Source: Gigantopelta aegis (taxonomy: Eukaryota; Mollusca; Gastropoda; Neomphalida; Peltospiridae). From it: DNA of 64,000 nucleotides. The notes beneath the pieces are model-generated. The model searched no databases, was not told the origin of the DNA, and worked only from the letters and a program-made list of their open reading frames with translations. Positions 11,050 through 63,351 of this stretch are shown here, piece by piece. How positions within the stretch are numbered: position 1 is the first letter of the stretch; each line of letters opens with the position of its first letter. The translations under genes and the position numbers were made by a program. The stretch is taken from positions 31,183,959-31,247,958 of the forward strand of contig NC_054704.1 of the NCBI RefSeq assembly GCF_016097555.1, written 5' to 3'.

Positions 11050-11700
11050 CTAAAAAAGAAAGATTACAGTTAACGGCTCCCTATCTTGGTTGATTAGCTG
11101 GCGGTGTTGATTGGCGGTGATAGTTTTATCTACATGTGAATTTGAATGTTTAGGTCTTAAAGAGTTGACTCGTGGTTTGATATTGTAGTGCCATGTATTA
11201 GGTGTTTGGTCCCAACTTTCTTGCCATTTGTTAATGTAGTGTTTTCTTGCTTGTGACATTAGTTCTGTGATTCCTAATGGTAATGTTGTAATTTTGCTAG
11301 TGATTGATAATGCAGCTACTTCATTGCCAATTATCCCTACGTGAGCTGGGACCCATTCAAAAACTACTGTGAGGTTAAGTTGGTTTAGTTCATGGAGGAT
11401 ATTGTGGACAGCTGCCATAATATCAGGTCTAGTGGATTTATTTGTTTGAAGTGATTGGATAGAGCTGAGACTGTCTGAGAAGATAACGCTTTTTGAGTAT
11501 TTTTTTAGTTTTAATCCAAATAAGAGCTTCATATATGTCAGTTCTGCTGTATATACTGATAGATTGTCTGACAGCCTAGAGTATTTAACTAGTTTAGAGT
11601 GTCTAGAGAGTTTTTCTTCAACTACTGCGAAGCCAACCTTGCCATTATCCAGGTTTTTAGAGCCATCGGTATAGATGTGGATGTGCTCGGGGTAATTTTC
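11050..11700 (-). pseudogene. LINE RNase H domain
   Basis: Minus-strand frames give IYTDGSKN (first catalytic Asp) near 11690-11665, FAVVE, then SDSLSSIQSLQ (Asp), and WVPAHVGIIGNEVAA near the end, where the usual final Asp after GNExA is replaced. The order D, E, D and AHxGIxGNE is that of a type I RNase H. The frame from 11532 runs to the stop at 11050. It follows RT directly, as in I-type LINEs. A frame break lies between the first Asp and the 11532 frame. Confidence 0.75.
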
Positions 11701-12498
11701 GTTGGCTGCGGCTTCAAACAGGATTTTCTTAAAGGGTGGAAATTGAGTTGAATCTGTTGCTTTTTTTTATTAAGTATGGTGTGTGGCACTCGATTGGCTG
11801 GTTAATATGATATAGTGCCACTGGAGTGTTGTCTATTCCTACTTCTATTTCTAGTTTACTGGCTTTAGTAGTGAAAGAATCGTTGAGGTTTTGATTGGTT
11901 TTAAATATAAGTCCTGGTCTAGCTATGATTGGAGTGAGTTCCTGAACTGGGTGATCGATTTTTAGCGAATGGATTTTAAGATGATAGTTAAGATGTTGAA
12001 GATTGCGGCGGTATTTGAGCGGCATAATATTAAACTCAACTTCTAGACTTTGTCCGCTGGTATTTGAAGGAACTTTAGCTATAATTCTAAGAGCTTGGTT
12101 TAGAATAACATCTAATTTATGTAACAGTTTGGGGGCGGCTCAACTGTAGGCTTGGACTCCATAATCTATTCTGAAGAGTATGCATGCTTTGTAAACCATA
12201 AGCATTGCCTCTGTTTGCGCTTCCCAACTGGTACCTGAGATGGCTCTTAACAAGTTTAGAGTATTTTTTGAGTTCCTGACTATGTCAATGATATGGTCAC
12301 TAAAGGTTAGTTTTGAGTCAAAAGTTACACCTAGAAATTAAAAATGTTTGACTCTTGGAATTATTTTGTCACCTGATTTAAGTTGGTGATTTTCTGATTT
12401 ATTGACTTTATTAAAAAGCATATAGACAGTTTTAGTTTCTGATAGTTTAATGCCCCAGTCCAGGGCCCATTTGTTAAGTCTATTCATATCAGCTTGCA
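11701..12498 (-). pseudogene. LINE reverse transcriptase, C-terminal part
   Basis: After the Polinton the RT resumes as MNRLNKWALDWGIKLSETKT, the segment that follows the catalytic F/YADD box in LINE RTs, then FNKVNKSENHQLK. The thumb and connection region continues at 12025-11729 (MPLKYRRNLQHLNYHLK). Several frameshifts are present. The join with the upstream RT piece at 18018 is in frame after discounting one CTTGCA. Confidence 0.75.
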
Positions 12499-12640
12499 AG
12501 TAGTAAGGGGGCCTGTATAGAGTCATGACCTACTTTCCGTGACCTTGACCTACTTTCCGTGACCTTGACGTCACGTGACCTCGTCCTACTGGCCCTGACC
12601 TACTTAGACTGGCCTACTGTGCTGTGTGCAACGCCCTACT
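12499..12640 (+). repeat. Polinton left terminal inverted repeat
   Basis: Matches the reverse complement of 17870-18011 with few differences. It contains two tandem copies of GACCTACTTTCCGTGACCTT and then several GACCTACTTAG motifs that continue into the element to about 12720. Such iterated subterminal motifs could bind a transposition or replication protein; that is inference. Confidence 0.88.
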
Positions 12641-12737
12641 GACCCGGTCCTGACCTACTTAGACCGGCCCCTGACCTACTTAGTCTAGTCCTGACCTATT
12701 TAGCACGGCCCTGACCCGTCGTACTTAGCAACGCCCG

Positions 12738-12893
12738 TGCTATCCTGTCTGTGGGAAGTGTAGGATCCCTTGCTACTAATGGGAAACTGTAGCGGGTTTC
12801 CTCTCTAAAACTGTCCAAAAGTATGTTTCACATCCAATAGGCAATGATTCGTAAATCAAGGTGCTCTAGTGGTGTCGTTAACCTACCACATCT
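12738..12893 (+). mobile_element. SINE fragment (variant tail)
   Basis: Contains the SINE core GCTATCCTGTCTGTGGGA, the segment TAGCGGGTTTCC, and the alternative 3' tail with CATCCAATAG and GTGCTCTAGTGGTGTCGTTAA. It lacks the tRNA-like head. Its 3' part is included in the 470-bp tandem duplication. Confidence 0.7.
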
Positions 12894-13743
12894 AAGGACT
12901 CGGCCCGACGCCAGGTAGTGTGTTTAATTTTAGCGCCCTGAATGATGAATGGTTATCACTGCTTACATCCGGGAAGCGGTGGTATCCTATTTTATTGTTG
13001 GTGGCAATACTGAACTAGAAGTTACATTCTTAAAGACGTGAAATAAGAAATGATTTAAATGGTGTAAAATAGAATTCTCGTTCTACGCTATCTGATAGCG
13101 CATTCACAAGATTATTATTAACTAACCTATTTCGTCACTTTATTCCGCGCTTCGCCGCTCACACATATAACGGTTTAAATGACAGGTTTTGTTAACATGC
13201 GTTTAGTAGTCAAGTGCGAACGACTTCGCGTCCAGCGCTGAGGGTACGTCGTTCATATCTAATGTGGGGAAATTCTAAAACTGTCCAAAAGTATGTTTCA
13301 CATCCAATAGTCAATGATTCATAAATCGAGGTGCTCTAGTGGTGTCGTTAACCTACCACTTCTAAGGACTCGGCCCGACGCGAGGTAGTGTGTTTAATTT
13401 TAGCGTACTGAATGATGAATGGTTATCACTGTTTACATCCGGGAAGCGGTGGTATCCTACTTTATTGTTGGTGGCAATACTGAACTAGAAGTTACATTCT
13501 TAAAGACGTGAAATAAGAAATGATTTAAATGATGTAAAATAGAATTCTCGTTCTACGCTATCTGATAGCGCATTCACAAGATTATTATGAACTGACCTAT
13601 TTTGTCACTTCATTCCGTGCTTCGCCGCTCGCACATATAACGGTTTAAATGACAGATGTTGTTAACATGCTTTTAGTAGTCAAGTGCGAACTACTTCGCG
13701 TCCAGCGCTGAGGGTACGTCGTTCGTATCTCATGTGGGGAAAT
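12804..13743 (+). repeat. 470-bp tandem duplication inside the Polinton
   Basis: Copy 1 (12804-13273) and copy 2 (13274-13743) are nearly identical, each starting CTAAAACTGTCCAAAAG and ending near CATGTGGGGA. The high identity implies a recent event. The unit includes part of a SINE and a GC-richer segment with CGCTGAGGGTACGTCG. No coding potential is seen. Confidence 0.9.
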
Positions 13744-13879
13744 TATATTTTTCTATTATTTTTAAACCAAAATAATAATTTATAGTTTGTTTTTATTTTA
13801 CTTATTTACTTACTTATTTATTTGTTTATTTATTTATTATGTTACGATTTTTTTTTCAAGCAGCCTCTAATAACCCTGT

Positions 13880-14171
13880 GGGGACGAGACGTAACTCAGT
13901 GTTCTCTTGATGTGCGGTAGGTCTGGGATCGATCCCCGTCGGTGGGCCCATTGGGCTATATCCAGCCAATGCTCCACAACTGGACAACGGTATGTACTAT
14001 CCTGTCTGTGGGATGGTGTAGGATCCCTTGCTGCTAATCGGAAGAGTAGCCCATGCAGTGGCGACAGCGGGTTTTCTCAATCAAAATCTGCGTGGTCCTT
14101 AACCATATGTTCGTATAACCGTAAATACAATGTGTTGAGTGCGTCGTTAAATAAAACATTTCTTTCTTTCT
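13880..14171 (+). mobile_element. tRNA-derived SINE inside the Polinton
   Basis: The head GACGAGACGTAACTCAGTG (A-box-like) and GGGATCGATCCCC (B-box-like) is followed by the shared body and the tail TAAATAAAACATTTC. A second short copy of the tail lies at 14172-14222. Confidence 0.8.
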
Positions 14172-14297
14172 TGTATAACCATAAATAAAATATGTTGAGT
14201 AAATAAAACATTTCCTTCCTCGTAAAATAAAGATTAATTGAACACAAATATTTTATTTTGTTTTAGCCATAGGAAAAGAAAGACATATTTGTCTCGA

Positions 14298-14398
14298 AGA
14301 AAGGAATGTTTGTTAAGAAGAAAGGCATATGTGTTAAGGAGAAGAAAGGAATATTTGTTAAGGAGAAGAAAGGAATATTTGTTAAGGAGAAGAAAGGA

Positions 14399-14448
<50 letters not shown>
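14298..14448 (+). repeat. 24-bp minisatellite next to a (TG)n microsatellite
   Basis: About four copies of an AAGGAGAAGAAAGGAATATTTGT-like unit run directly into roughly 23 TG dinucleotides at 14401-14448. Frames across this region are artefacts of the repeat. Confidence 0.9.
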
Positions 14449-14452
<4 letters not shown>

Positions 14453-14607
14453 TCCCCAGCCCATTGCTTTGAAGAAAGAACGCGTGACTGCAACTGAACG
14501 CTCCGACCTAAACTATGATCTTTTAGCTGCATTTTAAGCACAAGTATTTCCCTAGAGTACAAGCCTTTTTACAGGGCTTTTTAATTACCAAATGGGTAAA
14601 TACAGTG

Positions 14608-14760
14608 GTCGATCTAGGATCGATCCCCGTCGGTGGCCCATTAAGCTATAGCCAACTAGTGTATTATGTCTGGTATATCAAAGATAGTGGTATGTTCTGT
14701 CTTGTACACACAGCTCTTGCTACTATAAAGTAGCGGTAGTAATATCCAATCACAAATCTA
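14608..14760 (+). mobile_element. SINE fragment
   Basis: Contains the head element GGATCGATCCCCGTCGGTGG and the start of the body (TGGTATATCAAAG), but diverges after about 14700. Confidence 0.6.
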
Positions 14761-14810
14761 GTCATAGAGTAAAAAACACAAAAAACAAACGCAATGTTTT
14801 GGTTTTTTCA

Positions 14811-14816
14811 TTTATT
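14811..14816 (-). terminator. Poly(A) signal for the ATPase gene
   Basis: AATAAA on the minus strand, about 95 bp beyond the ATPase stop codon. Confidence 0.5.
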
Positions 14817-14909
14817 TCTAAATTACAAATCACTGACACATATATAAAATGGACACACACTGGGTTACATCGAGAGGCCTTAAGGGCGACATGTGAATAA
14901 TATGAGTGT

Positions 14910-16391
14910 TCATTTCTCTTCATCATTGTCGTCCTCCTCATCGTCGGTATCGTCGTCGTCTTGTTCATCCAAATATTCGCCGATCCATGAACGATACTGA
15001 TTTAATTTAGAACGAATCTGTGGTCTCACATCTTTGTCTGGATTCACAAACTGTAAAATTTTCCTGGTGTTGGGACCTTTGTCAAAGTAATGCATATAGG
15101 TCAGAAAGCGAGAGTACGTGTCTTTAAATAACTTCCATTGCAATGTCTTCATGTTTCTTTCAATGGCATCTTGGGACATGTTTTTTTCTTCGTAGCGTTT
15201 CCTCTTGCTTTCGATATAGTCACGATTGATGTCGAATTCACGTTCCACCATGAGACGAATGCCTTCGTTTTCCAGGTCGGGCGACGGCTCTTCTTCTTTT
15301 TCATTTCCCTTTTCGCACGTTTTCACGTGTCGCTGCAAGTCGCTTCCGTCTTTAAAGACCAGACCACACGTATCGCAAGACTGCATCCTCTTGACTTTTT
15401 TCAGATAGGGTTCTACCTCATCATCTTCTTCGTCGTCACTTTCGTAGGCGGGTATGCCTGGTAGTTTTCTCTTGAATGCGTTTCTTTGCATGATTTGCAT
15501 GTAGAGCTCTTTCTTCGTCGGTGGCTGCAACTCTTCTGAGACATTCGCCGTTACGTTCGTGCTTTTATACCATTCGGACGGCCCCGTCTCTAAACCATTA
15601 GGCCGAAGACGCCAATGTTCGGGCGTGGTCGGTTTCAAGTCCACCAAGAGATATCCGTAGGGCCTATGGGTAGCTTCCTCAAACCGCTGCATGAAATGAC
15701 GAGTATTTCCAGGATACATCTGCTGTGCCAAGGTTAGGACTTGCTGCTTGTCGATGGGGTTGTTAAACAGTGCCAGGTAATGACAGTTTCTTCTCTGTGT
15801 CGGGTCCTTGCTGTGATACAAGTTCTGGTTGATGGCAATCACAGAGAGGTTTCTGTGGTGACTTCCTTCCGTGAACAGGTCGGTGATGCGAGGGTCTTTT
15901 CCAGCTGTAGACATCAAGTCGTCCAACACGATGAGATTTCTGACTCTGGGATCCAAATAACGATCCTTTTCCAAATTATCGGGTATGCCTTGAACAAATT
16001 TCACTCGAGCAACCATTTTGATCGTATCATAGAGGGGTTGCCATCGTTTGTAGAGCCAGATGATGCGCTGGGGAGGCGGGTGGATTTTACCATCCCTTAG
16101 CAGTTTGTACAACAAAACTGTCTTTCCACACGACGTGGGTCCCGACACGATCATGGTGAACGGATGTAACAATCTTAGGGGCTGCTGCTGCTGCTGCTGC
16201 TGTGGTGGTGGTGGTGGTGGTGGTGGTGGTGGTGGTGGTGGTGGCTGCTGCTGCTGCGGCGGCGGCGGTGGTGGTGGTGGTGGTGGTGGTGGTGGCTGCT
16301 GGTTGTGGTGGTGGTGGTGGTGGTGGTGGTGGTGGCTGCTACTGTGGTGGTGGTGGCTGCTGCTGTGGTGGTGGTGGTAGACCTTTAGCAT
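14910..16391 (-). CDS. FtsK/A32-type DNA-packaging ATPase
   Basis: A 493-codon frame. Residues 1-70 are a His/Pro/Gln/Ser tract encoded by triplet repeats. The P-loop is GPTSCGKT (about residue 85) after the family-typical LHPFTMIV strand. Walker B is NLIVLDDLM (about 150-158), followed by FTEGSHHRNLSVIAINQNLY (sensor region), YLALFNNP and a Pro-rich exit. A C2H2-like finger (CDTCGLVF...H) lies near residue 350, and the C-terminus is a basic helix (KRKRYEEKNMSQ) then a very acidic tail. Known role of the family: pumping element DNA into capsids. The domain is intact, with no stop. An N-terminal C2H2 finger sits upstream in another frame. Neighbours are the small protein and the BIR gene on the same strand. 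Confidence 0.87.
   Translation of the reverse strand: MLKVYHHHHSSSHHHHSSSHHHHHHHHHHNQQPPPPPPPPPPPPPQQQQPPPPPPPPPPPPPPQQQQQQQPLRLLHPFTMIVSGPTSCGKTVLLYKLLRDGKIHPPPQRIIWLYKRWQPLYDTIKMVARVKFVQGIPDNLEKDRYLDPRVRNLIVLDDLMSTAGKDPRITDLFTEGSHHRNLSVIAINQNLYHSKDPTQRRNCHYLALFNNPIDKQQVLTLAQQMYPGNTRHFMQRFEEATHRPYGYLLVDLKPTTPEHWRLRPNGLETGPSEWYKSTNVTANVSEELQPPTKKELYMQIMQRNAFKRKLPGIPAYESDDEEDDEVEPYLKKVKRMQSCDTCGLVFKDGSDLQRHVKTCEKGNEKEEEPSPDLENEGIRLMVEREFDINRDYIESKRKRYEEKNMSQDAIERNMKTLQWKLFKDTYSRFLTYMHYFDKGPNTRKILQFVNPDKDVRPQIRSKLNQYRSWIGEYLDEQDDDDTDDEEDDNDEEK
16178..16380. repeat. Coding triplet repeats (CTG/GTG)
   Basis: Alternating blocks of TGCTGC and GGTGGT on the plus strand encode poly-Gln, poly-Pro and poly-His on the minus strand. 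They are prone to length change and to assembly error. Confidence 0.95.
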
Positions 16392-16392
16392 G

Positions 16393-16467
16393 TTTTTGTT
16401 GAAAATGTCTTAACATGGCGTCTCTCCTCGAGAATGTGAAACCACATTCTGAACATGTGCTCTGCAT
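16393..16467 (-). other. N-terminal C2H2 finger of the ATPase gene, out of frame
   Basis: From an ATG at 16467 the minus strand encodes a C2H2 finger (TCSECGFTFSRRDA, then MLRHFQQKH). That frame enters the triplet-repeat tract and meets a TAG, while the ATPase frame is one base away. Related ATPases commonly begin with such a finger, so 16467 is the more likely original start and a slip within the repeat (16178-16380) separates the two. Real lesion or assembly error cannot be told apart here. Confidence 0.6.
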
Positions 16468-16508
16468 GACGACTCCAAATGAAATGACGATATCTGACCC
16501 ACACAGTT

Positions 16509-16518
16509 CCTTTTATAG
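16509..16518 (-). promoter_or_regulatory. TATA box for the ATPase gene
   Basis: CTATAAAAGG on the minus strand, about 42 bp upstream of the ATG at 16467. It matches the TATA consensus well and supports 16467 as the start. Distance to an unseen transcription start would leave only a short leader. Confidence 0.6.
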
Positions 16519-16523
16519 CTTAT

Positions 16524-16861
16524 TTAGAAATGCTTCTGCAGTTTCGGGGCTTTCCAACCCGTACCACTTTGTTGTTGTTGTTGTTGTTGTTTCCGTTTCA
16601 GATCGGCCTTGGCTTGCTCTACCACTTGTTGTGTTGGGGAGACCATGACGACTTTGGGTGTCGGGGACTTGTTTTGTTCCTCTTTTTTTTTTTCCACGTG
16701 GGATCGTAGAGTTCTAGACATCGATCCACACTGTACATGATCTGACTTTTCCCACCACGTTGCACTGGAAAATGAGGTTGAAGTTTACCTTCTGCCTGCA
16801 GTTTATAGAAACGGGTCCACTTATCCACGTCGGGTACATATAACTTGTACTGGTCTGACAT
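16524..16861 (-). pseudogene. Small basic, Gln-rich protein with a KLYVPD N-terminus; one frameshift
   Basis: The frame from 16861 encodes an N-terminal part with YKLYVPDVDKWTRFYK and a PTWKKKK basic patch. In an A/T run around 16682-16692 the sensible frame changes, and the second half (16721-16524) contains KVVMVSPTQQVVEQAKADLK and a Gln run near the C-terminus. Combined length would be about 110 residues. I do not recognise a domain; similar KLYVPD-type small proteins seem to accompany ATPases in Polinton-like elements, but that is recollection only. The frameshift sits in a homopolymer and may be a sequencing error. It has its own TATA box. Confidence 0.6.
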
Positions 16862-16914
16862 GTTGCTCCTCTGAAAGTTCTACCTCAAATGACGAGTTTT
16901 CCAAAACTATTTTA

Positions 16915-16922
16915 CTTATATA
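16915..16922 (-). promoter_or_regulatory. TATA box for the small Polinton gene
   Basis: TATATAAG on the minus strand, about 55 bp upstream of the ATG at 16861. Confidence 0.55.
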
Positions 16923-17142
16923 CCTTATGACGCATAAAGATATGGTACAGGAATGTTTGAATGTGTGTGATACGTATGAGCAGTGTCCCTCCTCCCAAGC
17001 ACAAATCTCATCGTGCGAGCTCACAAAAATAATCGTTACCAAAATATTACCCTTTACCAGTGTTACTACCATAGGGACACGTCCAGAGACACACTCATGG
17101 ACCCAGGACATAAATAAGAAAGCAAAACCTGTTATTCACGGT

Positions 17143-17148
17143 TTTATT
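17143..17148 (-). terminator. Poly(A) signal for the BIR gene
   Basis: AATAAA on the minus strand, about 46 bp beyond the stop codon at 17194. Confidence 0.55.
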
Positions 17149-17193
17149 CACAACATACAACATGATAACATAGCACACAAGTGTCTAAAACAT

Positions 17194-17724
17194 TTAATGT
17201 CTGAACAGGTTGTTCACATAAGGACATCTTGGAGAGAGTCTGTAATGTTCCATCACTGGGTCGTCCATTCTCTGCCATCGGTAGGCGCGTAGTCCACAAC
17301 AGTAACAGACGACGGCATCGTGGTCTCCCGTGTAGTAGTAGAAACCGGCCTTGGCAAGTTCTTTTGGTTTCTGACGTAATTGTATGGGCCACCACCCAAA
17401 TGTCAGCATCCGGGCATAGAAATGTCTCATTTCAGGACGATGACAGAACAAGTAACGTCTCGAATAGCAGTCTTCCTCATCCCAGGCAGCGTCTGTGTCA
17501 CAGGCAGCATCCGTCTGATCTGTGGGTTCATCCACGAGTTCGCCATCTTCAATTCTATCCCCAATTTTGCGTGTAGCATCCGCTTGATCCACACAATGAG
17601 TACTCTTCTTCTCATCTGGTTTGGTAGCCACTCTTTTGATCGTATGTCTTTCTGAACATTTGCAGACCAAGATGTCGTCCTCGTCGCTACTGCTACTAAC
17701 ACTGCTCGAATATCCCGATGCCAT
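17194..17724 (-). CDS. BIR-domain (IAP-type) protein carried by the Polinton
   Basis: The ORF is open to an ATG at 17781, but the ATG at 17724 (AAGAAGATGG, good Kozak context, 176 codons) is the likelier start. An acidic, Ser-rich N-terminal half (SSSSDEDD) is followed by one BIR domain over the last ~75 residues: MRHFYARMLTFGWWP, LAKAGFYYYTG, then CYCCGL, a Trp, DDP-x2-EH and P-x-C. All zinc ligands (C, C, H, C) and the AGF-x-YTG core are present. The BIR fold binds caspases or IAP-binding peptides; baculovirus IAPs are the known viral users. There is no RING finger, unlike most antiapoptotic IAPs. It is the most upstream gene on its strand, close to the right terminal repeat. Function is inferred, not shown. 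Confidence 0.85.
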   Translation of the reverse strand: MASGYSSSVSSSSDEDDILVCKCSERHTIKRVATKPDEKKSTHCVDQADATRKIGDRIEDGELVDEPTDQTDAACDTDAAWDEEDCYSRRYLFCHRPEMRHFYARMLTFGWWPIQLRQKPKELAKAGFYYYTGDHDAVVCYCCGLRAYRWQRMDDPVMEHYRLSPRCPYVNNLFRH

Positions 17725-17869
17725 CTTCTTCGTTCCAGATAGAGTGCAACAAGACACAATAATGTCAGAATCATAAAACACGTCTGTTCTCTAGTAAAAC
17801 GAACGTATATCTGGTCGTTTTCGGCGAGCGAATGACAATGAAACCGTATCTAGCCTTTTTTTACTCTTT

Positions 17870-18011
17870 CGTGCCGGCCTAAGTAGGTCATGGGCCGGTC
17901 TAAGTAGGTCAGGGTCAGTAGGACGAGGTCACGTGATGTCATCAAGGTCACGGAAAGTAGGTCAAGGTCACGGAAAGTAGGTCATGACTCTATATAGGCC
18001 CCCTTACTACT
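17870..18011 (-). repeat. Polinton right terminal inverted repeat
   Basis: Inverted counterpart of 12499-12640, carrying the same tandem CTTTCCGTGACCTT units and CTAAGTAGGTC motifs. It ends CCTTACTACT directly against the CTTGCA duplication. Confidence 0.88.
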
Positions 18012-18017
18012 CTTGCA

Positions 18018-18900
18018 TTAGGTGAAATAAATTAGTGGTTGTGTTGCCTGTGCGCCAGTTGGCGCAATCATCGGCAAATAGTGCTGTGTTTAATGGCGTG
18101 GTCGTTTTTGTTTTTCCTTTAGCATTAAGTGCTTTAGTTATGTCATTAATAAAAATTTTGAATTAGGTTGGTGAGAGGACTGAACCTTGTGGTATGCCAT
18201 TAATTATTTCAGTTCTATCTGAATAGTGAACGTTAACTCTAACTGAGATTGATCTATTATGGATGAAATTGTTGATAAAATTAAACATATTTCCTTTAAT
18301 ACCGTTACTCTGTAATTTATTTAGTAGACCTTGACGCCATACCATATCAAAAGCTTTTTCAATATCTATGAATATTGCTAAAACCTTACGAGATTTTCGA
18401 AATGCATCATTAATACTATTTTGTAATCTAACTACACATGTATTTGATCTATTGTTGAATGTTTAGTTTTAAATCCGCTCTACATTAGTTATTAGATTAT
18501 TTTCGAGTAGGTAATTGTTGAGTCGTTTATTGATAATAGTTTCTAAGGTTTTGCACATGTGGGACATGAGTGTTATCGGTCTATAACTCCCTAGGAGGGA
18601 ATGGTCTTTTCCCGCTTTAGGGAGACTAAAGCATTCTGCATGTTTCCACACAGTGAGCATTTGACCTGCCCTCCAACTTTGGTTAAAGAGCGATAACACT
18701 ACCTTTAGGGCTAGGTCCGGCATGTGCTTGAGTAATGTGTAACTTATTTGATCAGGCCCGGTGGCAGTACTTTTTTTTAGCTTTAAGAGCTGTTTTTAAT
18801 TCTAACATTGTTATTGGTTTATTAAATTCTAAGTTATCAGTAGTTGGGTGATTTGCTGTTTTAGTATCATTAGTTGGTAGAGAGTTATCTTTCTTAAGTT
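18018..18900 (-). pseudogene. LINE reverse transcriptase, N-terminal and catalytic part
   Basis: Minus-strand pieces give SLPKAGKDHSLLGSYRPITL (18640-18560), KTLETIINKRLN, then a MVWRQGLLNKLQSNGIKG segment, NGIPQGSVLSPT (18190-18163) and LFADDCANW (about 18075-18050), the catalytic FADD box. Motif order is that of LINE RTs. Frameshifts separate the pieces; the segment is cut by the Polinton 30-40 bp after FADD. Confidence 0.8.
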
Positions 18901-34800: not shown

Positions 34801-37800
34801 AATTTTCCTGTGTGTTTTATTTTGAGTGACAACATTAAAAACATTTCTTTTCAACATCACCTGGCCTCATAACTAGTGCATATTCCCTACGATTAGTAGA
34901 CTGGTCCGAACATCCCAACAGACAATGGGATGGCTTAAATTCTTCCACTGTGTACCCTTCCTGTTCCGGTCACGTGACTATAACATCCTTCTTTTTCTTC
35001 GCTCTTATGGTTCGAACGTTCTTTATTTTGCTCTGTCGTAATCTGAGCCATCTGTTTTATTACTTTGGATTATGTTTCGATTTATCGTGATGACACATTC
35101 TTTAATGTTGTTACTTTGCTATTATACCATTATTTTGGTTGTAATCATTTTAGTTTAAGTGTTATTTACACTTTAATTTTTTTTAATTTTTTTGCCATGT
35201 GTGCCAGTTACCCTGTAGGTCGCCATTTTAAAATGGCGTCTTCTGGTTTACCAGATTTTTGCATTTTTATGTGTTTGCTTTCTCATTACAAATAAATATT
35301 GAGAATGTCGGATACTAGCTCTGCTAGAGTCATGCGTTCCTGTACGAAATGCAGGAAATTTATGGTGGGAGGAGACCAGCACGATGTCTGCCCCGGGTGT
35401 CGGTCACCCTGTGATGTCGAATCACGTTGTCTACTCTGTCTTCCTCTCGGACCAACTGAATTTGACAACTACTTGAAGGTCTTGGCTCAGCGCTCTAGGA
35501 AATCGGATGCTGTTTCGGCGGCTTCCCCTCCAGTTACACCGACTTTGGAGTCTATGACTGAATTGCTGAAGTCTATCTTACCCAGTATGGTTCAAGAAAC
35601 TCTCGCTTCGCTACAAGCCACTACTAGACCTACGGCTACCGTGACGGTACCAGTTTCAACTCCAGTGTCTACTACGGTGTGCGCTACGGTTACCACACCG
35701 ATGGATACTACGGTGTCTTGTCCGCCTAGGGATTCCACTGCGGATCATCACCGACCTACTTCATCTGTTGTTGGGCATTACAATTTACGGGAGGCCGTGT
35801 CAGCAAAAACCGCATCCAACTCCGTATTAACACCAGCGATCATCGTGCCCACAGCAAGAGATTTAATCACCACATCCTCTGGGGCTGTGTCGGTAACAAT
35901 CATAGGTACCGGTCCCTTCCGGGTAGGCGTCGGTGGTCGAGGTAGCGATGGTAGAAGCTCATAAACAACGGATAAACAGTCTTTCATTGTCATATTATCC
36001 ACGGTATCTGAATCATCCACAACGGAATCCTGTGGTTCATCCTCAGGGAAGTCCCGCAAAAGCCGAGCACAAGCATGCTGATCCGCCGTACTTTAAGGAT
36101 GTGGAGACCATGAACTGCCGTAACGGGAACCGGAGGGTGACCGTGAGGTATAACACTGGATACTACGAAGACCGATGACGGTGATGAGAATAATCTGTAG
36201 ATCGTGGAGAACAGCCAGTCAACAAGCTGGTCGAGAAGGGAGCAGTACGGAAGTTATCGCAGCAACATCTATCTCCGGGATTTTACTCAGAAATCTTTCT
36301 GGTTCCCAAGAAGGATTCACCCGACCTCAGAATGATTCACAATCTGGCATACTTCAATTTACATCATCTAGACCCTTCGCCACAGTTCAAGATGTTCACA
36401 GTCAGCGATGTGAGAACAGTCATTCAACCAGACGATTGGTTAGCGTCGCTGGACATCAAGGATGCCTACCTCAACGTACCCATCCATCCAGCTTACCACA
36501 AATATCTCAGGTTTGTGCTGCAGGGAGTGCATTACAAATGGATGGTTCTGCCATTTGGCATTTCGGTCGCTCCTTGGCTATTCACGAGAATAACAGCTCC
36601 AATGTCGCGAATTCTCCATCAGCAGGGTATATCATTTTACCCATACCTGGACGACTGTCTTTTGAAGTGCCAGAACCAGCTGAAGTTAGTGAACCAAATC
36701 AATTATGTACTTCAGTTCTTGAAAACACTAGGTTGGATTATCAACGAGGAAAAGTCGCGACTGTTACCAACACAGAATCTCCAATTCATTGGGATTCAGA
36801 TACGTACCGATCTGGGACTTCTTCAGGTTCCTGCAGACTGATGGAACAAGATTCAATTGGCGGTATCCAAAGTTCGAACCTGTGACATTCCATATGTGGC
36901 AAAGCCTTCTGGGCCTGTTGACTTCAGCCCAGGACTTGACCTTACGGGGTCGCCTACAGTTACGACGTTTACAAGTCTTCCTGAATCCGTACATAGTATT
37001 GAACAACCCCAGTCTGTTGATCACTCTACCCGACAATCTTCAACACAGTCTACAATGGTGGATGACTCCGTCGAATGTCTTAGGAAGAGTCTCTTTGGTG
37101 CCATTCCAAATGACTCACCATCTGTTTGTGGACGCTTCAAGAGAAGGTTGGGGAGCACATCTCAACAGTCAGACAGCGTCAGGGCTGTGGTCTGCTGAGG
37201 AATCAAGTTTTCACATCAATGTGCTAGAGCTTCTGGGAGAGTTCAACGTGATACGTCATTGGCGTCATCTCTTGATAAATGCAACACTAATGGTAGCAAC
37301 CGACAATGTGACAGCGGCGGCTTACATCAGTCGTCAAGGGGGAACTCATTCCAGCAGCCTACTCGATCTGACTTATCGTTTGTTCAAGATGACAGATGCC
37401 ATTCCGCTACATCTCGGAGCACGACACATCCCAGGAGTGTCAAATGTTCTGACCGAGTGGATGCTCAATCCGGAAGCGTTCCGGTGGGTTTGTCAAAGAC
37501 TGTGGACTCAGTTCAATCATCAACTAAGACTGTATGTGTCGCCGGTACCGGATTCCAACGCACTGGATCTCGACGCCTTGGCCATCAGCTGGGACAATCT
37601 GGACACGTATGCTTTTCCGCCTCCAATATTACTACCACGAGTCCTCCAGCGATTTCAGGAGTTCCATTGTCGATTACTTCTCATCGCTCCAAATTGGCCA
37701 AGCAGAATCTGGTATCCAGACCTACGTCTTGCAGAACCAGATCCTCTACCGCTACCAGATTGGGATTGCCTCTTGCTTCATCCCACGTCGAGACAGCATC

Positions 37801-43800: not shown

Positions 43801-46800
43801 TTGTTATATTGCAGGTTGTCGTGTCGGACGCCATTTGCAAAATGGCGTCTTTGTTGACAGGCTTTGTGTTTGTGTCATGGTTGGTTTTTTCTTTCTCTTT
43901 CACAGATTGAAATTTTTTTATCATGTCGGATGTTAATGTTCAGCGACAGATACGAGCGTGTTTACGCTGTAATAAATTTACTGCCGGCGGTGACCCTCAT
44001 GATTTATGTCCGGGTTGTCGTGTTCCGTGTAGCCTCTCTTTTCGAGATGCGACCTGTGTTCGGGGCTGTCTAATGTTGAGTTCGCGGCTTACCTGAAAGT
44101 GGTGTCAGCGAGAACCAAGAAAGTGGAATCTTCGCCTTCAATTGCTGACTCCGTAGCGGAAGTGTTACATTCAATTCTACCGACCATGCTGAAAGAAACA
44201 ATGGCGTCAATGGCGCCCTTACCAAAACCGGCGGTTTTGGGGTCAGGTCCGGTGCAAGTCCCCTCTTCAGGGGGTGCGGCTTCTTCAGCTCTACCGATAC
44301 CTAAGACATCTTCGGCGCATCGGAGCCGGGACCGTAGCCGTTCCCCACGACCTGCACGGCTCCCTACGGGTTCCATGGATCGTCAGCGCCGACCTTCGAT
44401 TGATGTGACTTCCAGGGCCTACGAGGGTTCTCGACCGGACCCGTCCACGGTCCGGTTCACCGGCGGCTTCCATTTCGGCAGATCGATTAGCCTGTGCTTG
44501 AGTGCTCCAAGACTTTGGAGATGCAGCGCCTATATCGGTTTCTATCATTGATGAGCCTGACTCTGCTGACCATATGACTATGAGGGATTGCTTGGCGGCC
44601 GTCTATGACATGTTGCCGTCCTTGCCACATCCACCAACGCCGTCCAAGAAGGGACCGACACCGATGATAGCGACTGATGTCCCTCTGGAAGATGTGGTTA
44701 TCCGTTCCTTGGCAGCCGGTACACTCATATCCGATGTGGCGACGGATTTAGACCGCACCTTTAAAGACGCAGCGTCCTTTGTCGCCTTCCCGTCTTGACA
44801 TGCCCTTTAAAGATGGGGCTCCGTCTGTGGATGAAGATGTTCACCGTCTTGGGAAGTCGTCAACTGTGGATTTGACGGACAAACAGGTCCAAGCCATGGA
44901 TACTGCCCAGAGACATTGCTTGTTTGTGTTATCTTATTTGGACATTTTCCTTGCTGCGATGGCCACCCAGGCAAAAGATGCACGGTGCTATGCGCTGTTT
45001 CAACAATCAGCGCAGATGCTGGCTTTCCTGACGTCTTCGGTTACCTCTATGTCATCGATGTTGATGCAGTACCGTCACCAGGCTTATCTGAAAAAGTCAA
45101 CTTTGGATTTCCAGCATAAGAAGGAGCTGTTAACTCAACCGTGGTCTGCAACAAAGTTGTTTGCAGGCAAGGTTTCTGACGTGGTTACGGCCAATGATAA
45201 GGACCAACAGTCGACAGCAACTGTCAAAGCTTTGCAACTTATTTCGACGTTGGAATCCACGAAGCAAAAGTCTACTTTCACTGCACAACCACCATCTAAG
45301 CGCTGGAGAGGTTCCTTTTGAGGTCAACCTTCTCGACGGTTTCCGGACAGACGACCATCCGGTCCTCCAGCTCGGACCCAGGGTAAGCCTGGTCGACGTT
45401 GACGCCAGCCAACAGATCTTGGACTGCTCAGATTGTCTCGACCTACGCCCGCCCCTGATTTTGAACCAGAACAACGACTCGGGTTTTGACGCTTCCGGTG
45501 TGCAACACACCGGTCGAAATATCCATGGTCGGAAGTCGACTTCGCCATTTGTCACGTCGATCTTGAAGACAGGGTATCATCTGCAATTGTCTGCCATCCC
45601 TCCATTGACCACTTCACCTCGAGAACCGCGGCATTCTGTATCACAAGTCAAGGTTCTACAGGAGTCCGTCAACAAACTGGTGGAGAAGGGAGCCGTTCGC
45701 AGCATTTCGGAAGAACGCTTAACACCCGGCTTTTATTCGGACATCTTCCTCGTACCGAAGAAAGATTCTCCGGAGCTGCGAATGATCCACAACTTGGCGT
45801 TTTTCAACGACCACTACCTGCTTCCTCCTCTGACCTTCAAGATGTTAACGTTGCGAGATGTCCTTGCCGTGATCAAACCGGGGGATTGGCTTGCCTCGCT
45901 AGATCTCAAGGACGCCTACCTTCACGTTCCGATGCATGCCGATTGTCATCGCTACCTCCGGTTCGTACTACAGGGTCGGCATTACGAATGGACAGTCCTG
46001 CCCTTTGGGATATCCATGGCGCCATGGCTGTTCACCAGAATCACGACTCCGATGTCCCGCTTCCTGCATCGCAGAGGTATATCCTTTTACCCGTACCTCG
46101 ACGATTGCCTGATGAAGTGTCAGAGCAAGATAGGGCTTACTGCACATGTTGCCTTCATCATGGACTTTCTCAAGCATCTGGGTTGGATTATCAACATCGA
46201 GAAATCTCAACTGGCTCCCACGCAGTCTCTACAGTTCATAGACGCTTGGCTTCGACCCGACCTGGGCCTCGTTCAAGTTCCTCTAGACCGTTGGGAGAAG
46301 ATCCAGACCATGATTGCCATAGCCCTCACCGCTCCAATGACCTTTCATGGTTGCCAGAGTCTCCTGGGTCTCCTCACTTCTGCCCAGGATTTGACACTCA
46401 GAGGTCGTCTCCAGTTGCGGCGCTTGCAGATGTTTCTCAACCCGTTTGTTCGTTTCAACAATCCGGACTTGATCACCTCGCTCCCAGACAATCTACGCTC
46501 CAGCCTGCAGTGGTGGCAGCTCCGATCGAACGTCTTAGACGGTGTCTCTATGCGGGCCTTCCTAGCCACTCATCACCTGTTCGTCGACGTGTCACTGGAA
46601 GGTTGGGGAGCCCATCTAAGCAACCAGACTACTTCAGGGCTGTGGTCTCCCGGCGAACTCGGACTCCACATCAACCTGCTAGAGTTGTTGGCAGTCTACT
46701 ACGCTATCCTTCATTGGCGATAGATGTTGACAGGGGCCTCTCTCATGGTGGCCACAGACAGTACCACTGCGGCGGCTTATATCAACCGTCAGGGCGGAAC

Positions 46801-49800
46801 CCACTCCAGCAGTTTGCTGCAGTTGACTTATCGTCTCTACAAGCTGGTCGACGAGATTCCGTTGCAACTTCGGGCTCGCCATATTCCAGGGGTTTCCAAT
46901 GTACTAGCCGACACACTGTCTCGGCTGTCGTCTCCACAGCCGACGGAATGGATGCTCCATCCCGAAGCGTTTCGATGGGTGTGCGACAGACTTTGGACAC
47001 CAAACATCGATCTCTTCGCCACACGATTCAACCATCAGCTGAGGGTTTACGTGTCTCCAGTGCCAGATCCCGAAGCTCTGGATCTCGACGCCTTGGCCAT
47101 CAGCTGGGAGCAGATGGACACGTACGCTTTTCCTCCACCAATCCTCCTTCCAAGGGTGCTTCAGAGGTTTCAGTTGTACCATTGTCGCCTGTTACTCATT
47201 GCTCCGATGTGGCCATCCAGGATGTGGTATCCAGATCTAATACGTCTTGCCGATCCACATCCTTTACTGCTGCCAGACTGGGATCATCTGTTGCTGCATC
47301 CCACGTCAAGACTATACCATCCACGTCCGCAGTTGTTCCAACTGCACGCGTGGACTTTATCTCCAAGAGTTTGAGGAAGAAAGGTTTTTCTTCACAGTCT
47401 ACGGCGGCCATTTTGAAAGCGCACAGATCATCTACTACTGCGGCTTACAACGTCAGATGGCTTTGCTTTCACTGATGGTGTGTCCAGCAAAAACTCAAAC
47501 CTCAGACGATCCAGATACCTCGTCTTGCTGATTTTTTGCTGTATCTGCGGACCACTTTACGATTAAAGGGGTCTACCATCGCTGGGTACGTTTCGGTCAT
47601 CGCTACTGTTCGTGATGTTGCTACTGGAATGAAGTTATCGGGTATTCCTGAGATCCATAAGATGATCAAAGGGTTTCGCCTTGATGATCAAGTACACCGG
47701 TTTCGGCCACCAAGATGGGACCTGAATCTGGTGTTACGAGCGTTATCGACTGCACCTTATGAGCCGATCGAATCCTCTTCCCTGCAAGACTTGACGAGGA
47801 AGACGGTGTTTTTACTCGGTTTTGCCACGGCTGCCCGTGTCTCAGAACTCCATGCTCTTGATGTAGACTTGGTACGTTTTCACCGAGATCGGCGTGCAGT
47901 CAACTTGGGGTTACTCATGAACTTTGTTGCAATGAATCAGTTACCAGACCAAGCGCCTCGTTCGTATGTTGTGCAGGCCCTCTCCTCTATCGTTGGTCCA
48001 GCGGACGTTGAGGACTTGGCGTTGTGCCCTGTCAGAGCCCTGCACCAGTACATCGAGAGGACCAGATCTTTTCGACAACATCGCAAAAGACTTTTCCTTT
48101 CCTGTAACCAGAGTCGGTTGAGGGATATTACCAAGAACACGGTGGCCACCTGGATCCGGTCTTCTATCCTGACCGCCTATCAGAAGGAGGGTTTACTTGC
48201 TCCATCTGCTTCTAATCCGCATGAACTCCGTGCCTTGGCTGCCACGATGTCCCTGCACTGCAACACACCCATTCAGCACATTATCACTGGTTGTTTCTGG
48301 GCTACGGACTCCATCTTCGCCAACTATTATCTGAGGGATATCTCCACAGAAGACGTTGAGGGGTTCCATCATCTGGGTCCGGTTGTTGCTGCACAGACTG
48401 TTGAATACAAGCCGTCCTCGTCGCCGTTGATGTCTGTCTGATTCTGGGCTGCATACCGAGATGTCCATCGAATCGACAGGTGAGGATTGCTTAGACTTTT
48501 GTTCTTTTGCACTGGTGCCGGAACTTTTGTCTCGATAACCTTTACCCTGCACTGCATGTGGTTATTTGTTGTCGTTACTGAACTAACAGTTCTTTGGTGT
48601 ACTAGACAGAAAACACTTGGGGGTCTTGTTCTGTTCAATGTTCTGACGGATGCACCTCATTAGGTTGTCGCTTGTTATTACAAAAATAACACTTCAATAC
48701 GTGAGGGTTACCTAACACCTGCATCCCTGGTGGCTACGACTTCCCACCCTGTCAGAACCAGCATGAGATGTGGCAGCTGCCTCCTGGTCCCTGTTCTAGG
48801 TGCTGTACCTGCCACTGCTGACGGATGCCACCATTCTGGTTGGTGTTACTAACATCACCTGCATTGGTCTGTGACGGGCATCCCTAGGAGGAGAGCTTAC
48901 CAAGGTTGGCCTTATTCTTCCACTATTCAGCCTCTTTCCGGTTGGGGAGTTATCACAAGCATCTACGGATCTCGGCACCCACCACCATCTGTTGAATGCT
49001 GCCCTTGTTTGAGGACAGGTAATGTCTAAAGAAATGGAGAAAACTTGGAGTGTTTTCTCTTTTATAGATACATTACCTGTCCTCAAACAAGGGCACCTCC
49101 CCCCCACGCAAGTGGTCTGGTCCGAACACCCCAACAGCCAATGGGATGGCCTAAATTCTTCTACTGCATACTGCTCTCTAGTTCCAGTCACATGACTGTA
49201 ACTTCCTTCTTATTCCCTGAGCGCATCGCACGGAGAACAGGAAGCGGGGAGGCCCGGGCGGGATGAAATCTTGAGGACAGGTAATGTATCTATAAAAGAG
49301 AAAACACTCCAAGTTTTCTCCAGTTCTCGCTCTAGCCAGTGCACCACAACTGGTATATCAAAGGCCCGTGGTATGTGTTATCCTGTCTGTGGGTTGGTAC
49401 ATATAAAAGATCTCTTGCTGCAAATCAAAAAGAATAGCCCATGAAGTGGTGACAGCGGGTTTCCTGTCAATATTTGTGTGGTCCTCAACCATATGTCAGA
49501 CGCCATATAACCGTAAATAAAATGTGTTGAGTGCGTCGTTAAATAAAACATTTCCTTCCTTGTAAGATGATAAAGGAAAATATTTGGTAAATTAACACAT
49601 CATTAATAATTTTCTGCATGTTCTTCCAGAAATAGAACAGTTGGAAGAACGAGTAGAGGTCATGGAAAAAGAAAGACAAGATTTGTTGAATGAAAATATC
49701 AAAATATCAGAAGAAAGTCATGCACTGGTAAGAATTGTTCATTTGTTTATTAGAAATGTGAAAAGCTCTTGCCATTACTAAATTAAAATTACTAGGACAA

Positions 49801-61438: not shown

Positions 61439-62029
61439 ATGTCTGATGTGAGCATGTCGCGTGTTGTGCGTGTTTGCTCTAGATGTAAGAAGTTCATGTC
61501 ATCTGACGACCCTCGTGACATCTGCCCGAGATGTCGTGTGCCATGCCAGACGGAGATGAGATGTGTTCAGTGTGCTACACTGACCACACAGGAGTTCACC
61601 GCTTATCTGAAGGTGCTAGCCACTTGTGCTAGAAAGGCGGAGTCGTGTGCTGCGACGGGGTCAAGTGCGCCTTCCATTTCTGAATCCGTTGTGGATGTGT
61701 TGAAGACATTACTACCAGCTATGCTCAAAGAGACAATGGCTTCAATGGGTTCCGTCACAGGGGCGAATCTAGTGTCGGAGGTTTCCGGGCCGGTTCCATC
61801 TGCTTCCACAGTACCGATAGCCGGTGCAGCGGCTCCATCCAAGCGACCGTCAGCTCTTAAGGAGTCCAGTGGTCAGCCGTTTCAGATAGTTTCAAGCAAG
61901 AAGCGTTCCGAGGCATCTAAGCAGAGTCATCGAAGAGGACCGAGTCTGCTAGGCGTTCCGGTTCCAAGGGTTCCCGACGGGATCGTCCATGGTCCATCTC
62001 TCCGGTTCATCTTCATCTTCACGTACTGA
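61439..62029 (+). pseudogene. DIRS copy 3 gag, N-terminal part
   Basis: ATG at 61439. VCSRCKKFMSSDD, DICPRCRVPC and RCVQCATL form the zinc pattern, then FTAYLKVLATCARKAE and SISESVVDVLKTLLPAMLKE. It reads cleanly to about residue 190 and then runs directly into RT sequence, because roughly 1.5 kb (gag C-terminus and RT N-terminus) is deleted. Confidence 0.85.
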
Positions 62030-62690
62030 TTCATCCAGCATACCACCGTTATCTGAGATTTGTACTTCAAGGCATTCACTACGAATGGACAGTCCTGCCC
62101 TTCGGGATCTCCATAGCTCCTTGGCTCTTTACGAGAATTACAGCTCCAGTGTTGCAGTTCCTTCACCACAAAGGTATCTGCTTTTACCCGTACCTGGACG
62201 ATTGTTTGATGAAGTCTCGTTCCAAGACCCAGCTATCGATCCACGTCCTAGAGTTCCTGCGGTCGCTCGGGTGGATAATCAAGTTAGAGAAGTCTCAGTT
62301 GCATGCAACGCAGGACATACAGTTTATCGGAGCCCGTCTGCACCCAGATCTTGGCCTGGTACAGGTTCCTCTCGACCGTTGGACAAAGATACAGTTAATG
62401 GTCACCAGAGCCTTGACGTCTCAGATGCCTTTCCAGTTGCGCAGTCTTCGGATGTTCCTGAATACTTACATCAGGTTCAACGATTCAGACTTGCAGATTT
62501 GTTTACCAATCGACTTGCATCCCAGTCTCTGTTGGTGGCAACGCCGATCGAACGTCTTAGACGGAGTCTGTTTGCGGCCCTTCCAAGCGACACACCATCA
62601 CTTCGCAGATGCGTCTTTAGAAGGTTGGGGAGCTCATCTCAACGACCAGACTCTACACAGCCGTTCTACACATCAATCTTCTGGAGGTGT
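62021..62690 (+). pseudogene. DIRS copy 3 reverse transcriptase, truncated
   Basis: Begins at the deletion point with [15 protein letters not shown] and [15 protein letters not shown], then the YLDD box in [14 protein letters not shown] and LGWIIKLEKSQLH. The motif A region with its catalytic Asp is lost in the deletion. A further ~60-bp deletion joins SQMPFQ to LRSLRMFLN. Frameshift near 62150. Confidence 0.85.
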
Positions 62691-63351
62691 TGGCAGTGTA
62701 CAATGCAGTCCTTCACTGGCGTCCGCTGTTGATTGGAGCGTCCCTGATGATAGCTACCGACAGTGTAACCATGGCAGCTTACATTAATCGACAAAGCGGT
62801 ACACACTCCGGCAGTCTTCTGCAGATGACGTTCCGCTTGTATGACCTGGTGGACAGCATTCCACTACAGCTCCATGCTCGACACATTCTCGGGGTATCCA
62901 ACGTCCTGGAAGACAGCCTATCCCATCCGTCAGCTCTGAAGTCAACCGAATGGATGTTACATCCGGAAGCTTTTCGATGGGTTTGCAATCAGCTTGGGAT
63001 GCCAAACATAGATTTGTTTGCCACGCGGTTCAACCATCAGCTGAGAGTTTATGTGTCACCAGTCCCGGATCCAGACACCATAGATCTAGATGCCTTGGCC
63101 ATCAGATGGATGCGTACGCCTTTCCACCGCCCATCCTGCTGCCCAGAGTGTTGCAGAGATTCCAGCAGTTCCATTGCTGTCTTCTCTTGATCGCGCCAAT
63201 GTGGTCCACGAAAATGTGGTTTCCAGACCTCGTCAGGCTCACCGACCCACATCCTCTACCTCTGCCAGATTGGCATCCCACATCAAAGTTACACCATCCG
63301 CATCCTCACTTGTTCCGTCTACACGCGTGGACATTATTACCAAAGGCTTGA
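62687..63351 (+). pseudogene. DIRS copy 3 RNase H and connection region
   Basis: MIATDSVTMAAYINRQSG, ARHILGVSNVLEDSLS and [18 protein letters not shown] in one frame to about 63110, then a frame change to [20 protein letters not shown]. The first RNase H Asp ([16 protein letters not shown]) lies just upstream in another frame. Confidence 0.85.

Follow-up and report, generated by a model that had tools for sequence, protein, structure and literature searches.

What is a 5.5-kb unit in an animal genome that has the ends of a Polinton and carries neither its polymerase nor its integrase? The unit lies in the vent snail Gigantopelta aegis, in a stretch of 64,000 nucleotides (contig NC_054704.1, positions 31,183,959 to 31,247,958; hereafter the window), where it forms a complete insertion of 5513 bp at positions 12499-18011. 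An earlier note on this DNA had described it as a mini-Polinton with three cargo genes, perhaps a satellite mobilised by a full-length relative. Our computational analysis favours, with a probability of roughly 0.6, the reading that the window element belongs to a large family of Polinton satellites that are non-autonomous and chimaeric.

A complete insertion with three genes

The element is bounded by inverted ends, AGTAGTA...TACTACT, and by a target site duplication, CTTGCA, whose left (12493-12498) and right (18012-18017) copies agree at 6/6 positions. The outermost inverted arms (12499-12573 and 17937-18011) are 96% complementary and further arms reach to about 12683. Both the left terminal inverted repeat with its subterminal repeats (GACCTACTT... 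units; 12499-12740, plus strand, arms I1-I3) and the right terminal inverted repeat (17870-18011, minus strand) have matches elsewhere in the genome. A terminal 32-mer, searched with up to 3 mismatches, has exactly two sites in the window, which are the two ends of the element, and none in 100 shuffles. The empty site was sought with a 400-base query made of 200 bases per flank with one copy of the duplication; at all 40 places scored (of 370 candidates) the joined flanks are uninterrupted, at 96-98% identity and over at least 396/400 bases each. Both flanks lie near open reading frames (ORFs) like those of long interspersed nuclear elements, with RNase_H at 11050-11766 and RVT_1, under its cut-off, at 18469-18723. 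The inverted AG...CT ends, the 6-bp duplication and the boundaries that the earlier note had given are thus borne out.

Similar boundaries were read in other copies. Twelve elements on 8 contigs were readable, namely the window copy, two 7.5-kb relatives described below and nine of ten further end pairs that were fetched; the tenth pair (L087/88) was unreadable and so was left out of the duplication count. Eleven of the twelve have duplications that agree at 6/6 positions and one (L079/80) at 5/6. Over the first 26 bases in 12 elements, the two ends of one copy agree at 0.86 of positions versus 0.68 between copies, with 2 of 10,000 shuffles as good; the within-copy value is too low, since two of the end pairs are off register by one triplet. 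Taken alone, the identity within copies could be explained by recent insertion. Together with the variation between copies it would fit ends that are templated on each other, as happens in protein-primed replication.

Three genes are encoded on the minus strand. The BIR protein (17724-17194) has one BIR domain (PF00653, E 1.8e-19) and matches solved BIR structures (best E 3.1e-29). It is separated by a junction (16901-17175, minus strand), which serves here as the marker of the type-A short form, from SM (16861-16619), a small conserved protein without a Pfam family that is common to the long Polinton lineage. The predicted structure of SM has a mean pLDDT (predicted local distance difference test score) of 68 and does not resolve its fold. 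The third gene is a packaging-type ATPase (16391-14910) with the Walker A motif GPTSCGKT, a second C2H2 motif and an acidic tail. Its profile matches are weak (Pox_A32, E 1.1e-4; Adeno_IVa2, E 0.002), both under the curated cut-offs. An N-terminal C2H2 zinc-finger coding stretch of this ATPase lies at 16400-16467 on the minus strand, with its ATG at 16467, in a frame that differs from that of the catalytic part.

Among the ORFs of the window copy (12499-18011) we saw none for a PolB, an integrase, a protease or a capsid protein, and the gene trio stands as it had been described, with the addition that the window copy is partly decayed. Across 60 stretches the zinc finger and the catalytic part of the ATPase share one open frame in 35, and lie in separate frames in 6 (the window copy included); in the other 19 only one of the two could be found. 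SM has 80 residues in the window copy versus 110-144 in the other aligned sequences, its reading differing after about residue 62. The out-of-frame finger and the shortened SM indicate decay of this copy; many other copies are not decayed.

Copy number and selection in the family

Our genome searches scored the best candidates only, so that the counts are lower bounds. A 22-mer from the BIR-SM junction of the short form and a 24-mer from the ATPase tail, each allowed one mismatch, have 197 and 386 genome matches respectively, and their reversed controls have none. The window element is therefore not a unique internal deletion of one long Polinton, the outcome that the earlier note had itself set against its proposal.

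Gene content was compared in stretches 3-4 kb long. SM is present in 29 and BIR in 25 of the best 30 ATPase stretches (L039-L068, the window copy among them), and 29 stretches picked by SM (L010-L038) contain the ATPase in 27 cases and BIR in 17. Because the stretches are this short, an absence can be an effect of the edge, as at L044 and L066; at L024, L028 and L042, for example, it is real within the stretch. Conservation of the trio among short copies, as had been suggested, is thus seen in its repeated occurrence, with BIR not universal. The spacing between BIR and SM is about 336 bp in many copies, and the junction is found whole or in part at 43 loci, mostly at 93-99% identity. In six copies (L014, L019, L026, L032, L035, L037) the junction is related to this one but has diverged from it, and that of L016 retains the start of an integrase ORF, pointing to a separate deletion origin.

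Searches with the ends gave 40 left-end and 40 right-end matches at 79 distinct places, including 12 facing pairs with 2.6-6.0 kb between match starts, one of which is the window copy. Among the matches listed, the satellite ATPase lies inside at least 16/40 left-end and at least 8/40 right-end places, and no PolB (PF03175) lies within 22 kb inside any of the 79. When 69 stretches were compared with the ORFs of L070, a penton-like match was found only in L020, L021 and L064, and the ORFs of L070 that resemble a major capsid protein (MCP) or a protease had no match.

The pattern of substitutions was counted separately on internal and terminal branches. For 36 full ATPase stretches, a set that counts one place twice (L041 = L069), internal branches carry 119 nonsynonymous and 107 synonymous changes and terminal branches 269 and 160, with 1 versus 14 stops. 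The type-A set, copies that have one common junction, comprises 27 ATPase, 37 SM and 23 BIR sequences. Here the ATPase has nonsynonymous to synonymous counts of 29:36 on internal and 119:78 on terminal branches, with no internal stop and nine terminal ones; SM has 35:30 and 25:12, with no stops; and BIR has 79:48 and 74:66, with 3 internal and 5 terminal stops. With transitions weighted four-fold, the internal ratio to expectation is 0.32 for the ATPase (P 4e-6), 0.45 for SM (P 0.001) and 0.62 for BIR (P 0.007), while the terminal ratios are 0.60 (P 4e-4) for the ATPase, 0.42 (P 5e-7) for BIR and 0.80 (P 0.31) for SM, the last not different from neutral. In type-A copies the ATPase, SM and BIR are under purifying selection. 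Since these copies have a single common junction, much of this selection probably took place after the short form had arisen, provided that the short copies do not often recombine with the 7.5-kb form.

The left 2.4 kb of the window copy (12499-14909) contain no ATG-initiated ORF longer than 92 residues. In this arm a non-coding unit of about 470 bp, here called REP, occurs twice in tandem (12791-13740; direct repeat D2, 97% identical over 300 nucleotides at a spacing of 470) and has matches at many related loci. A piece at 13916-14160 (repeats D7, D9, D16) is one that we take to resemble a short interspersed nuclear element. The REP unit is retained next to the left end in many copies and might be a cis-acting or packaging signal, or merely inherited. 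L024, L027 and L028 form a diverged sub-family in which SM and the ATPase adjoin an end with the REP unit, with no BIR seen in the stretch. Still shorter relatives with the same ends occur at C10:66558367-66563398, at L042 and as other short pairs, some of them only about 2.6-3.4 kb apart. A gene model of G. aegis named putative inhibitor of apoptosis (P0127) consists of a BIR domain followed by SM-like text, and this composition suggests that satellites may be annotated as host inhibitor of apoptosis (IAP) genes.

Longer relatives and a probable origin of the ATPase

A count of short against long forms had been proposed in the earlier note; what emerges is a high-copy short family accompanied by a longer form of 7.4-7.6 kb that has an integrase. 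We read two complete elements of the longer form, C1:425028-432662 (7635 bp) and C10:57506468-57513842 (7375 bp). Both hold BIR, integrase, an ORF that we take to be penton-like, another ORF, SM, the satellite ATPase, REP and the other end. The integrase is open in the 7.6-kb C1 element (L097; 375 residues, rve and chromodomain), which also has a PC4-domain ORF, and broken in the C10 element. Neither of the two elements read has a match to the MCP-like or protease ORFs, and neither has a stretch left to hold PolB, for which no search was made in them. When 37 integrase places were compared with the 100 ATPase tails that head the listing, which run from C1 into C6, at least 8 had a tail downstream on the same strand; among the matches listed, none of these 8 has an MCP within 8 kb, and 12 of the 37 places have one.

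Two long elements, on C5 and C8, were read from the left end inward. The C5 element (C5:14047324 onward) is a long Polinton with an end, BIR, integrase (rve and chromodomain), a penton-like ORF, SM, an MCP-like ORF, an adenain-type protease, an ATPase and a PolB match, as well as PC4-like text recognised by eye. The MCP and penton labels, which carry no domain hit, are assigned from gene position and relatives; MCP-like proteins are present in many molluscs and beyond, also without a domain hit, and a PDB sequence search with the MCP-like and penton-like ORFs gave no match. The satellite is close to this Polinton in BIR (71% identical in protein and 85% in DNA) and in SM (86%). The C5 ATPase, with an N-terminus that is zinc-finger-like by eye, is 37% identical to the satellite ATPase.

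As a helper, the C5 element was our first choice and was set aside, as its terminal sequence is only partly in common with that of the satellite; the C8 element fits better. The left end at C8:61024480 is identical to that of a short element at 91/92 bases, and it is followed by a PC4-domain ORF, an integrase 1.6 kb inside and an MCP-like gene 4.3 kb inside. Among the matches listed, this is the sole place of the 40 right-end matches with an MCP inside, and 40 places with a C5-type end have an MCP inside in 7 cases, a PolB match in 3 and the satellite ATPase in 1. At C3:33189900 a satellite ATPase lies 2.6 kb inward of a C5-type end, and this locus is a possible recombinant of the two kinds of end.

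A further relative of the satellite ATPase came from a search with a Mytilus homologue as query, in which 13 top places lay outside the earlier ATPase match list. One of them, L099 (C14:21171300-21179000), carries on one strand a row of broken PolB-like ORFs (one with DNA_pol_B_2 at E 3e-4, under the cut-off), an open C2H2 ATPase frame of 496 residues and a broken integrase (rve, E 1e-13), and is a second Polinton family of the snail. Its ATPase is identical to that of the window copy at 159/192 positions (83%) over residues 74-265 and at 47/199 (24%) beyond, so that the match to the second family lies in the catalytic half, with a tail that has diverged or was replaced. A protein from a metagenome contig (P0001) is about 70% identical to the window ATPase including the tail, and that tail is thus not unique to the G. 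aegis genome. Elsewhere, other molluscs were covered through protein databases and one stray contig. The search found 494 ATPase homologues; among the best 120, those with a species name are mostly from bivalves and many have C2H2 domains. In three gene models an ATPase homologue is fused to another domain, which is an integrase core in P0098, a chromodomain in P0043 and an adenain-type protease in P0087. The stray contig, from a mussel symbiont bin (L094, JACCHT010000018.1) and probably host DNA, has a C2H2 ATPase of the satellite kind at 52% identity; a PolB-like label given by eye to an ORF on its other strand is not supported by Pfam. No relatives were found in viral contigs, and a search of PHROGs gave a single match, at E 0.075.

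A simple internal-deletion derivative of one long parent does not account for these identities, with the ATPase 37% identical to the lineage of SM and BIR and 83% (residues 74-265) to another. The satellite is chimaeric, its SM and BIR matching one Polinton lineage and the catalytic half of its ATPase another. Of the proposed mini-Polinton with a full-length relative, the relative has a candidate in the C8 element, with its integrase, MCP-like gene and nearly identical end; the element is not a Polinton that merely lost genes. Within G. aegis, no long Polinton with the satellite ATPase was found: 127 ATPase places, 100 from the main list and 27 picked from the Mytilus-homologue search, gave one MCP-like match within 12 kb (C10:62178666, unread; about 0.26 expected by chance) in an incomplete listing. 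A single one of 100 ATPase places has a PolB match within 20 kb (L100), and on reading this was an ordinary short element. Among the matches listed, 96 integrase places have an MCP or PolB near in 40 cases, the satellite ATPase in 5, both in none and neither in 51. We had entertained the idea that the satellite-type ATPase never lies near PolB; it rested on an incomplete PolB list and is contradicted by L099.

Elsewhere in the window, positions 44033-48441 hold an element that we presume to be DIRS-like, in which a reverse transcriptase ORF (RVT_1, E 5e-22) precedes one of tyrosine-recombinase type (Phage_integrase, E 8e-5, under the cut-off). Further RVT_1 ORFs lie at 36194-36841 and 61921-62787.

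A proposed mechanism, its rivals and known systems

Because the genes for replication and insertion are missing, the ends match and duplications are present, we strongly infer that the satellite would be copied in trans by the PolB of a Polinton and that the integrase for its insertion would come, also in trans, from long Polintons or from the 7.5-kb relatives. During helper activity, the satellite would make its own ATPase, perhaps with SM, and its short genome would be pumped into capsids built by the helper; this packaging step is suggested by the identity of the gene, by the selection on it and by its difference from the C5-lineage ATPase. By analogy, it is plausible that the satellite retains its own ATPase in order to enter helper capsids. 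As SM is kept by helper and satellite alike, it may be a packaging or virion protein. The BIR protein may block cell death and would thereby delay the death of the producing cell. The fuller picture, an animal counterpart of phage satellites that resides in the genome and steals Polinton capsids by means of a packaging ATPase that it took over from another family of Polintons, is tentative, and we put it somewhat short of an even chance.

Several observations weigh against the satellite reading. The action of the ATPase on capsids is proposed by analogy. The C8 element, the preferred helper, is absent from the PolB listing, which is incomplete and was not supplemented by a PolB search aimed at it, and its BIR and SM are unread. 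The one C5-type end in 40 with a satellite ATPase indicates that a kind of end does not always go with the same genes. Some copies have no BIR, L042 shows the ATPase alone in its stretch, and pairs of satellite ends less than 3.5 kb apart exist, so that insertion probably does not require the three genes in cis. For BIR, selection runs in reverse of the expected pattern, at 0.42 on internal and 0.29 on terminal branches in the 79:48 and 74:66 count, and the reversal persists with weighting. Finally, the ATPase tree places L064 within the short copies, a sign of sequence exchange between related elements, and some of the selection may therefore have acted in the 7.5-kb form.

In part these observations suit an account in which the short copies are passive derivatives: any integrase that recognises the ends would move them, their genes would hitchhike, and the signal of selection would be inherited from the 7.5-kb relatives or from an unseen long parent. 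Same-end pairs less than 3.5 kb apart and the lone ATPase of L042 favour it, as do the placement of the 7.5-kb forms among short copies on the ATPase tree and the integrase ORF start kept at the L016 junction, which shows that deletion recurs. The common junction of the type-A copies nevertheless points to a single origin, and yet their ATPase has 29:36 internal changes and no internal stop against nine terminal ones (P 4e-6 with four-fold transition weighting). On balance we regard passive derivation as unlikely. The open integrase of the complete 7.6-kb L097, which has no MCP or protease match, would also suit a capsid-free transposon, in which the 7.5-kb form is the active master, PolB acts in trans and the ATPase handles DNA in the cell and not in packaging. 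In agreement with it, no particles of vertebrate Mavericks were reported to have been seen by 2021 (PMC8097293). However, the ATPase resembles packaging ATPases, if weakly by domain, its relative at L099 adjoins PolB-like ORFs and an integrase, and the 7.5-kb form retains a presumably penton-like gene, all of which make a capsid-free transposon improbable.

It is harder still to credit that the snail keeps the copies since BIR or the ATPase benefits it, for instance against full Polintons. IAP genes are expanded in molluscs (PMC8917759), but selfish spread is what the hundreds of scattered matches and the ends and duplications of 12 elements suggest, and BIR is missing in some copies. An artefact of assembly, for which we found no supporting point, is next to inconceivable given 12 elements with duplications on 8 contigs and an empty site at 40/40 scored places.

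We found no description of such an element in the portions of the open-access literature available to us (subscription papers and repeat databases lay outside the search), and phrases such as non-autonomous Polinton or Maverick are absent from the open-access library papers. What would be new is a satellite of Polintons that is animal-resident and chimaeric; satellites as such are already known. Polintons carry capsid genes. If the satellite does steal capsids, the selection on its ATPase would be indirect evidence that Polintons in living animals form particles, and a dependent high-copy element with a selected packaging-type ATPase, unlike that of the long lineage, makes the question of particles testable. 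It would extend satellite biology to animal Polintons. Molluscs have intronless IAP genes that have been proposed to stem from retroposition (PMC8917759), and the satellite is one possible vehicle for them.

Similar to Polintons (Mavericks, polintoviruses), the satellite has 6-bp duplications and AG...CT inverted ends, and a long Polinton of the same genome matches its SM at 86% and its BIR at 71% identity. Its ATPase may be of their FtsK packaging type, given a Pox_A32 match under the cut-off and a relative that adjoins PolB-like ORFs and an integrase. The (AGT)2...(ACT)2 motif reported for vertebrate Mavericks (PMC8097293) is like the satellite ends. In contrast to Polintons, which are given as 15-20 kb (PMC4028283), the satellite is 5.5 kb, has no PolB, integrase, protease or capsid gene that we could see, and has an ATPase closer to another Polinton family. 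Tlr elements of Tetrahymena were once suggested to be non-autonomous Polinton derivatives as well; contrary to the satellite, they encode MCP, penton and helicase (PMC4028283). Non-autonomous transposon derivatives, such as miniature inverted-repeat transposable elements, likewise have common ends and high copy number and are presumably moved in trans, whereas purifying selection acts on all three genes of the snail element, and one of these genes is closer to another lineage. Virophages, for example mavirus, are also small Polinton relatives that depend on a larger virus, but they encode their own capsid proteins (PMC11071308), and none was seen in the snail element. Phage satellites, such as phage-inducible islands or Mulch and Flayer (PMC10690885), resemble it in being without replication genes, in bringing a packaging-related gene and in their presumed dependence on a helper. 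The snail element differs from them in residing in an animal genome, with a Polinton as putative helper and with packaging and interference as putative traits.

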